DNA of 38,070 nt from Gallionellales bacterium GWA2_60_142 (GTDB lineage Bacteria; Pseudomonadota; Gammaproteobacteria; Burkholderiales; Gallionellaceae): NCBI GenBank assembly GCA_001801085.1, contig MGWR01000004.1, forward strand, positions 1 through 38,070, written 5' to 3'. Under the pieces are notes generated by a model that did no database searches, had not been told where the DNA came from, and saw only the letters and a program-made list of their open reading frames with translations. The translations under genes were made by a program, and so were the position numbers. Positions 14,832-16,445 of this stretch are shown here, in pieces; position 1 is the stretch's first letter, and each line of letters begins with the position of its first letter.

Positions 14832-14942
14832 ATGAATCCCGGTTTCTACAACATCCTCGCGCCGCAGTTCTTATGGCTACGGCCATACAGCTCCGCAATC
14901 TTTAACGTGCTGCGCACATCAGCCTCCGCCAAAAGAACATGA
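14832..14942 (+). CDS. Small ORF 1 upstream of lplT, 36 residues, LplT-like N-terminus
   Basis: Encodes MNPGFYNILAPQFLWLRP plus an 18-residue tail ending SASAKRT. Its first 14 residues differ from the LplT N-terminus (MNRGFYIILAAQFL) at three positions. The stop overlaps the start of small ORF 2 (ATGA), implying translational coupling. It is too short for ordinary gene finders and has no clear ribosome site (AAAAAGTCCCGTTGA precedes it). It is either a decayed duplicate of the lplT start or a real leader peptide; the sequence alone cannot decide, but the retained reading frame and the coupling argue against simple decay. Confidence 0.45.
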   Translation: MNPGFYNILAPQFLWLRPYSSAIFNVLRTSASAKRT

Positions 14943-15052
14943 ATCGCGGCTTCTACATCATTCTTGCCGCGCAGTTCCTGTGGCTCCGGCCGGACGGTGA
15001 ACCCGTCCTTAACGCGCTCGCGCGAGCCTCCGCCGAAAGAACTGGCCTATGA
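14939..15052 (+). CDS. Small ORF 2 upstream of lplT, 37 residues, LplT-identical N-terminus
   Basis: Encodes MNRGFYIILAAQFLWLRP plus a 19-residue tail ending ASAERTGL. The first 14 residues are identical to LplT although six of the 42 bases differ, all synonymously. After residue 14 it diverges from LplT but keeps WLRP, an N..L core and the SA.(K/E)RT tail in common with small ORF 1. Its stop overlaps the lplT ATG (ATGA). The tandem unit is 107-110 bases. The synonymous-only difference from lplT suggests selection on the peptide, or an origin from a related lplT allele. No Shine-Dalgarno of note is visible. Confidence 0.5.
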   Translation: MNRGFYIILAAQFLWLRPDGEPVLNALARASAERTGL

Positions 15053-16275
15053 ACCGGGGCTTTTACATCATCCTTGCTGCGCAGTTCTTGTCGGCGCTCG
15101 CCGACAATGCCCTGCTGTTCGCCGCCATCGCCCTGCTCAGCGACCTGAGCTCGCCGGCCTGGCATACGCCGGTATTGCAGCAGGGATTCATCTTCTCCTA
15201 TATCGTGCTGGCGCCGTTTGTCGGCGCATTCGCCGACTCGTTGCCCAAGGGCCGCGTGATGTTCATCAGCAACCTGATCAAACTGAGCGGCTGCGTCGCG
15301 ATGCTGATCGGCGTGCATCCGCTGCTGGCCTACGGTCTGGTCGGGCTGGGTGCGGCAGCCTATTCGCCGGCGAAGTACGGCATCCTCACCGAATACCTGC
15401 CGCCCAACCAACTGGTCAAGGCGAACAGCTGGATGGAAGGCCTGACCGTCGCGGCCATCGTGCTCGGCGCGGTCGTCGGCGGCATCCTGATCAGCCCGAC
15501 GCTGGCCGCACCGCTGGTGGAATCGCTGAACATTCCGATGATAGACAGCATAGGCAAGCTGGCCATCGCCGCGATTGTGCTGATCTATATCGTTGCTGCG
15601 CTGTTCAACCTGTACATCCCGCGTGTGCCTATCGAACACAAGCCGTTCAGCCGCAACCCGGTCGCGCTGATCCAGGATTTCACTCACTGCTTCAAGCTGC
15701 TGTGGAAAGATCCGCTGGGGCAGGTATCGCTGGCAGTGACCACGCTGTTCTGGGGCGCGGGCGCAACGCTGCGGCTGCTGCTGATCGGCTGGGCCGCGGT
15801 CGCGCTGAACTACGACATCAGCGAGGCCGCGAAACTGACTGCCTGGTTCGCGATCGGCATCGCGATCGGTTCGGTGCTGGCGGCGAAGTACATCAAGCTA
15901 GAGCATTCGGTGCGGGTGCTGCCGGTGGGCATCGCGATGGGCGTGGTCGTGCTGATGATGATCCCGATCACCGACAGCGTGCTGGCGGTGCTGCTGCTGA
16001 TCGTCATGGGCGCAATGGGCGGCTATTTCGTCGTGCCGATGAACGCGCTGCTCCAGCATCGCGGTCACCTGCTGATGGGCGCTGGCCGCTCCATCGCGGT
16101 GCAGAATTTCAACGAAAACCTGAGCATCTTCGCGATGCTGGGCCTGTATGCGGTAATGCAGAAGATGGAACTGCACATCTACCTCATCATCGCGGTGTTC
16201 GGCCTGCTGCTGTCCGGCATCATGACCGCGCTGTACAGGCGGCACGGGCACGACCAGGATCGGGGACAGATGTAG
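15049..16275 (+). CDS. lplT: Lysophospholipid transporter LplT (MFS)
   Basis: 408 residues, 12 predicted membrane segments. The N-terminus (ILAAQFLSALADNALLFAAI) carries the QFLSA..DNALLFA signature shared with E. coli LplT, and AYSPAKYGILTEYLPP and NSWMEGLTVAAIVLG are also family marks. LplT flips lysophospholipids across the inner membrane for re-acylation; in many bacteria it is followed by the acyltransferase Aas, which is not present here. The start codon overlaps the stop of a small ORF that repeats the same N-terminus, an unusual arrangement described separately. It is convergent with the following PAS-GGDEF-EAL gene, with a composite repeat between. Confidence 0.92.
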   Translation: MNRGFYIILAAQFLSALADNALLFAAIALLSDLSSPAWHTPVLQQGFIFSYIVLAPFVGAFADSLPKGRVMFISNLIKLSGCVAMLIGVHPLLAYGLVGLGAAAYSPAKYGILTEYLPPNQLVKANSWMEGLTVAAIVLGAVVGGILISPTLAAPLVESLNIPMIDSIGKLAIAAIVLIYIVAALFNLYIPRVPIEHKPFSRNPVALIQDFTHCFKLLWKDPLGQVSLAVTTLFWGAGATLRLLLIGWAAVALNYDISEAAKLTAWFAIGIAIGSVLAAKYIKLEHSVRVLPVGIAMGVVVLMMIPITDSVLAVLLLIVMGAMGGYFVVPMNALLQHRGHLLMGAGRSIAVQNFNENLSIFAMLGLYAVMQKMELHIYLIIAVFGLLLSGIMTALYRRHGHDQDRGQM

Positions 16276-16279
16276 GGGT

Positions 16280-16412
16280 TTGTGGGAGCGGCTTCAGCCG
16301 CGATAAACAGCCCGGCAACTGGGGGCCCATCGCGGCTGTAACCAGCCACTTAGCGCAGGTTTCATCGCGCTTAGTGGATTGGCTAGTAGTTCCATCAAAG
16401 CCGCTCCCACAA
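16280..16412. repeat. Composite palindromic repeat (TGGGAGCGG family copy B with an AACCAGCCACTTA element inside)
   Basis: 16280-16304 is identical to the left arm at 4292-4316. A truncated inverse arm (ATCGCGGCTG) begins at 16329, and a further one (GCCGCTCCCACAA) ends at 16412. Nested between them is AACCAGCCACTTAGCGC ... GCGCTTAGTGGATTGGCTA (about 16341-16386), a second palindrome related to 35189-35236. It lies between the convergent lplT and GGDEF-EAL genes. Confidence 0.7.
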
Positions 16413-16445
16413 CAACACTGCGCACTTCAACGGCGGTCCGGCCTA

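Follow-up and report, generated by a model that had tools for sequence, protein, structure and literature searches.

Why does the start of lplT occur three times in succession in the genome of Gallionellales bacterium GWA2_60_142? In the 38,070-nucleotide stretch analysed here (contig MGWR01000004.1, positions 1 to 38,070; hereafter the window), three ATG codons at positions 14832, 14939 and 15049, spaced 107 and 110 nucleotides apart, each open a copy of this start, and the three copies form the top-ranked direct-repeat family of the region. The first two copies begin small ORFs of 36 and 37 residues that repeat the N-terminus of LplT, and each small ORF stop overlaps the next start in an ATGA junction (14939-14942 and 15049-15052), in agreement with the coordinates of the initial annotation of this locus. 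We consider it probable that the repeats are footprints of a miniature mobile element, which would have inserted twice into codon 14-15 of lplT and carried a spare gene end.

Layout of the lplT start region

All features of the locus lie on the + strand, and alr is located upstream of lplT in divergent orientation. Copy 1 of the lplT start (14832..14874) is preceded by the native upstream sequence, as in element-free relatives. It encodes MNPGFYNILAPQFL and ends at a putative target sequence, S', and we interpret it as the displaced native start (T'). A palindromic core of 57 nt with a somewhat decayed hairpin 1, delineated with a covariance model and by inspection of the letters, follows at 14875..14931, and the sequence AAAGAAC at 14932..14938 forms the foot of the right hairpin (rcS). 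Copy 2 (14939..14981) would serve both as the start borne by this first unit and as the target S' of a second unit, which comprises a 54-nt core detected with the covariance model (14982..15035), rcS AAAGAAC (15036..15042) and six extra bases, TGGCCT (15043..15048). The six bases and the 54-nt core bring unit 2 to 110 nt, which would keep the frame. Copy 3 (15049..15091) is the current lplT start (T), with S at its end (GTTCTTGT). The covariance model matches in this genome (G000) are G000:C4:14870-14936 for unit 1 (44.7 bits, E 6.5e-9) and G000:C4:14977-15040 for unit 2 (34.6 bits, E 5.1e-6). Both window copies look old, because their rcS no longer pairs fully with S.

Small ORF 1 (14832..14942) spans copy 1 and unit 1, small ORF 2 (14939..15052) spans copy 2 and unit 2, and lplT (15049..16275) encodes a lysophospholipid transporter of 408 residues (NCBIfam NF008397, E 3.8e-176; Pfam MFS_1). 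Between copies 2 and 3, 6 of 42 bases differ and the peptide encoded is MNRGFYIILAAQFL in each, as had been pointed out before, and copy 1 shows 9 and 10 base differences to copies 2 and 3, respectively. The tail shared by the two small ORFs, WLRP ... SA.(K/E)RT, had been noted in the initial annotation and turned out to be a dispersed DNA element read in one frame rather than a conserved protein feature. After lplT, the window contains an inverted repeat (16281-16415) with GTGGGAGCGGCTTCAGCCGCGAT and its complement, a REP-type-like sequence that is also found by L086. A second LplT-like gene at G000:C11:35779-36927 shares 46% identity with the LplT of the window.

A dispersed palindromic core and the boundary of the unit

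The core has the form T|GGCTACGGCC-hairpin-TTAAC-hairpin-TNAGCCTNCRCCG, measures 48-60 nt in 153 of 158 copies and is followed by the hairpin rcS-loop-S. As a single strand it folds into a Y, in which an outer stem between S' and rcS, with a T.G wobble at the junction, leads through GGC/GCC, a 3x3 internal loop and a further GGC/GCC to a junction with two hairpins. The fold is established by covariation: 94.4% of cells are paired, compared with 81.1% in shuffles and 54.3% in the best slid version, and double-change cells number 103 versus 35.6 in shuffles. Helix 1 (S'/rcS) itself covaries, three single sequences fold into this form (z -3.7 to -5.1) and H1 opens and closes with G-C in 110 of 140 distinct cores and with A-T in 18. 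rcS pairs with the target S' and, in the second hairpin, with S, and the loop of the latter hairpin often holds the end of the target gene.

The core is not confined to lplT. A covariance model built from 40 cores identified 14 copies in the genome, ten of which lie at the ends of lplT (2), nrdA (2), nrdB, metK (2), transketolase (tkt), glmS and dnaJ; these targets were named by NCBIfam, except metK, which was named via the tail common to L061 (metK by NCBIfam). Searching the genome with the region located the tail of ORF 1 again after nrdB, with the nrdB 3' end repeated beyond it, and the nrdA 3' end is present three times with two units in between. The model matched 43 of 61 same-genus genomes and, with stricter filters, 7 of 299 genomes across the phylum (this genome, five others from its order and one from its class). 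The initial annotation had argued correctly that the repeats do not reflect simple decay. Nor do they reflect chance: other same-genus genomes carry the unit at the corresponding position, and the core recurs elsewhere in this genome and in further genomes.

The full core pattern retrieved at least 119 stretches from one-genome-per-species records, and the matches listed include Gallionella, Sideroxydans, Methylotenera, Methylophilus, Thiobacillus, Cupriavidus and Paraburkholderia. Methylophilus methylotrophus DSM 46235 carries two loci (L079 and L090). Among 80 titled listed matches, nine are labelled Proteobacteria/Pseudomonadota only, three Gammaproteobacteria and one Alloalcanivorax, and the other 67 bear names that we take to be betaproteobacterial. 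A short pattern served only to fetch loci (21 of 61 genomes) and yielded 40 matches versus 49 for its reversed control; therefore, specificity is limited to the full core and the covariance model. By translation, the 3' ends hit belong to ftsW, argF, smpB, nrdA, metK and dnaJ, and further 3'-end targets are presumably proB, acs, trpE, serS, hypD and bioB. A blastn search with one 61-nt consensus-like query, a weak probe given that variable hairpins limit blastn, returned no match in phages, plasmids or E. coli, and the exact pattern had no match in IMG/VR. Tandem arrays of at least three near-identical units were observed at L061, L292 and in G016 (L048, L063), at metK, another gene end and lplT; the G016 array coincides with a contig break, so that assemblies may undercount units. 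A tRNA-Phe lies on the left side of the core at L077, with the repeat 34 nt away, and a tRNA-Leu lies near three tandem units at L291 in G056.

The base preceding the core is T in 154 of 158 copies, as part of TTTT in 82 and TTGT in 37 (119 together). Gene-end repeats flank the core at many sites: the direct-repeat score of the two flanks has a median of 42 versus 16 for mismatched flanks, and 63 of 145 copies exceed the 99th percentile of the null. In 113 of 151 copies, the right side repeats the left flank with a score of at least 24, the 95th percentile of mismatched flanks, and in 75 of those 113 the repeat comes to within 3 nt of the core.

The boundary of the unit was read from G056, where a larger repeat occurs in six copies, three filled and three empty at the same site. 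The insert measures 66 bp, from GGTTCCGGC to GTTTT, and its flanks are identical without target duplication, a comparison confined to a single site of one genome, which itself lies within another repeat. Based on this site, the unit consists of the core and rcS-loop-S. Across 48 loci, rcS pairing reaches further with S in 18, further with S' in 6 and equally far in 24 (p 0.023), in agreement with the G056 boundary, which includes the right hairpin in the unit. The native gene end, once displaced, is retained beyond the unit, and gene bodies always lie beyond S, the unit being antisense at 3' ends and sense at the lplT 5' end. The larger repeat itself (L285-L290) is ~210-270 bp long with ends GGAAACGCTGAA.../...TTCAGCGTTTCC, and each of its six copies holds one palindromic unit, with a second in three of them.

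Proposed insertion model and alternative readings

We propose that a unit, arranged on the element strand as [core][rcS-loop-S], would be placed immediately 3' of a target that ends in T (often TTTT or TTGT) and would itself end in S, a sequence similar to its target. The core would fold as a single strand into the Y, with rcS pairing with S' and also with S. Insertion would shift the native end T' to the far side of the unit and the element-borne end T would become the end of the gene, so that the hit gene would keep working. Since gene bodies lie beyond S at both 3' and 5' ends, the mechanism would operate at the level of DNA and not of RNA. After an insertion at a 5' end, ribosomes from the native start would translate across the unit and terminate at the ATGA that holds the real start, and tandem coupled ORFs would arise from this read-through. 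A unit adjacent to a gene might capture the gene end if a later S within that gene served as the right end of the unit. For such movement, the nearest working model is the single-strand transposition of IS200/IS605. The repeated recombination at the lplT start that the initial annotation had listed among its explanations was borne out.

More tentatively, we entertain the idea that the units are gene-free mobile DNA of a new class, in which the hairpin foot would act as a long self-matching guide and the loop as a replacement end. Such a unit might be retargetable to many essential genes and driven in trans by an undescribed enzyme, and frequent insertion and excision might keep both ends under coding selection, as suggested by T' at ftsW. 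The loci searched contained no transposase, no integrase and no unit with cargo. Neither distant left-flank repeats, followed up to 7 kb in part of the loci, nor solitary ends revealed an autonomous element, and a far match at L135 considered for this role was not borne out on reading.

The units could instead be relics without dedicated transposition today, spread by homologous recombination in which T' of a donor pairs to T of a recipient. T and T' would supply homology on both sides of the core, and the failure to find a mobiliser, including 0 PF01797 (Y1 transposase) matches in G056 despite its 17 listed copies, is compatible with this scenario. We nevertheless deem it unlikely, as the G056 insertion lies in the larger repeat without flanking homology and cores occur in many unrelated genes.

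The lplT cores of G016, G026, G074 and L179 are 96-99% alike (93-94% for G026 versus G074 and L179), and in the same comparison the gene body is 79-85% and the upstream sequence 58-79% alike. This pattern shows the spread of the element to the same lplT site in diverged species. At ftsW, mean similarities of 0.75 for the core, 0.85 for T and 0.83 for the body are about equal, which fits old residence rather than recent spread. The displaced FtsW tail is still encoded, with different codons, in G009, G027, G005, G024, G003, G080 and G019, and the displaced end is degenerate in G028 and changed in G081. Either the ftsW insertions are recent in each lineage or the unit excises often, the core and body similarity speaking against very recent spread. 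At L320 (G064), the ftsW end equals the element-borne end of G009 at 36/36 bases with no element after it, and this locus may represent a donor or a site from which the unit was lost.

The repeat-core-repeat arrangement would look alike if a target-site duplication had copied 25-70 bp of host sequence, T being host sequence from the start, and T indeed resembles the host T' in L179, L180 and L125. Both copies at L179 read MKPGFYLILAAQF, and T there is therefore a local copy or was converted, meaning that T is not always foreign; L180 and L125 have no Arg3, the residue that marks the gene-attached lplT starts at 9 of 13 element loci versus 0 of 24 element-free loci (p 6e-6). This signature follows the element, as does a Q-stop ending of argF, found in 6 of 9 loci with the element versus 0 of 19 without (p 2e-4; 2 of 30 loci, which were not parsed, were left out). 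At argF, rcS matches T and not T', and T and T' differ by 16-17 synonymous differences and 1-2 amino-acid changes (L062, L137). At some loci rcS pairs far better with S than with S' (13 v 3, 15 v 2 and 19 v 5), and the clean filled/empty site of G056 shows no duplication. Together, these results make a target-site duplication improbable. In the 44 of 148 loci in which T and T' could be scored, 202 synonymous base changes were counted against 81 codons with an amino-acid change (random ratio 3.11), numbers that are expressed in different units and include several rows read in the wrong frame. The differences fall mainly at silent sites, suggesting that T and T' are both coding-constrained. Comparisons across related genomes are not independent of each other (e.g. 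G074 and L120 are 98% alike).

The initial annotation had also envisaged a chain of leader peptides coupled to lplT. Such a chain could have been selected to control lplT translation, the DNA element being incidental. In all 17 scored lplT units, from 12 loci, the ORF is open and ends exactly on the next ATGA, with the length variants of 110 and 113 nt both in frame, and several loci preserve the N-terminal half of the peptide well; L006 (frame lost) and the first unit of L068 (no start) were left out of the scoring. These units share descent, however, and their control is not clean: units at other genes also have a length of 2 mod 3 in 25 of 47 cases, and frame keeping at lplT therefore rests mainly on the two length variants. 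The absence or frameshifting of small ORFs in relatives, which the initial annotation had named as counter-evidence, was found in part: small ORFs are missing from 24 of 30 related lplT loci, and the frame is lost in one related locus, L006 of G024, where a stop lies 14 nt before lplT. The unit also occurs in antisense orientation at the 3' ends of many further genes, where it cannot be a leader. Coupled translation at lplT is plausible from the arrangement of these ORFs, and we regard selection for a leader chain as the origin of the repeats as very doubtful. A membrane-targeted microprotein family, also proposed initially, is rejected, as neither small ORF has a Pfam match and the second half of each is a DNA element that occurs in either orientation at many genes with conserved base pairs, and a simple tandem duplication of the lplT start is likewise rejected because the dispersed core separates the copies.

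If the insertion model is true, mobile elements of ~100 bp can enter essential genes because they bring a spare gene end along, a strategy that, to our knowledge, has been described for large integrative elements only. The model would account for unusual gene-end repeats in many betaproteobacterial genomes, at which annotators would be reading false small ORFs, and the question of how palindromic repeats lacking their own transposase are mobilised would become testable. A base-paired guide with a variable target could also help to understand how target choice is reprogrammed.

Comparison with known systems

Integron attC sites have crossover boxes of the form RYYYAAC and GTTRRRY. The core contains TTAAC and GTTAGCC, but by inspection the latter departs from GTTRRRY and the element has a T|GG junction, and an attC site was rejected. 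A self-splicing intron was rejected because the unit is antisense at 3' ends and sense at lplT; the wobble at the junction recalls the pairing of group I introns, but the core is far too small. An Rfam scan of seven loci gave one chance-level CRISPR match, below the gathering score. The literature searched, in the portions covered, described no element of this form.

Prophages and islands that integrate into gene ends carry a copy of the gene end, and their target stays intact. The element resembles them in supplying a gene-end copy; they are large, encode an integrase and use one gene each, whereas the element is ~100-150 bp, gene-free and combines one core with many genes.

Rickettsia palindromic elements are short, palindromic and tolerated in coding genes, according to the sections consulted (PMC3733652, PMC10969869). 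They are translated as in-frame insertions, whereas the element described here replaces the gene end. The part of PMC3733652 covered describes REP and REPIN sequences as short palindromes repeated along the chromosome, which frequently neighbour gene 3' ends, and according to the corresponding part of PMC6006769, REPs bear GTAG/GTGG at the foot of their hairpin and lack conservation between species. As far as these excerpts go, the element is similarly small, palindromic, chromosomal and often located at gene 3' ends, but its conserved 5' end is GGCTACGGCC without a GTAG/GTGG foot, and its core is conserved. The flanks of three Y1_Tnp genes in G000 carry no ends of the element, and a RAYT/REP origin was rejected on this basis.

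IS200/IS605 insertion causes no target duplication. Likewise, the element inserts 3' of a short specific sequence without duplication, as seen at one site. IS200/IS605 elements have terminal hairpins, are cleaved 3' of a short target flanking the left end and rely on a guide at the foot of the hairpin, whose bases pair both with this target and with the terminal bases of the right end, in the account as far as consulted (PMC6006769). The element shares a hairpin-foot guide that pairs with the target, although its form and length differ from the tetranucleotide guide, the pairing between guide and target reaching up to 19 bases. Assignment of the element to the miniature IS200/IS605 derivatives fails on the enzyme, as G056 has no Y1 transposase match and the flanks of the three Y1_Tnp genes in G000 lack its ends. 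In further contrast to IS200/IS605, its core is a three-way junction conserved across genera and its loop carries gene ends.
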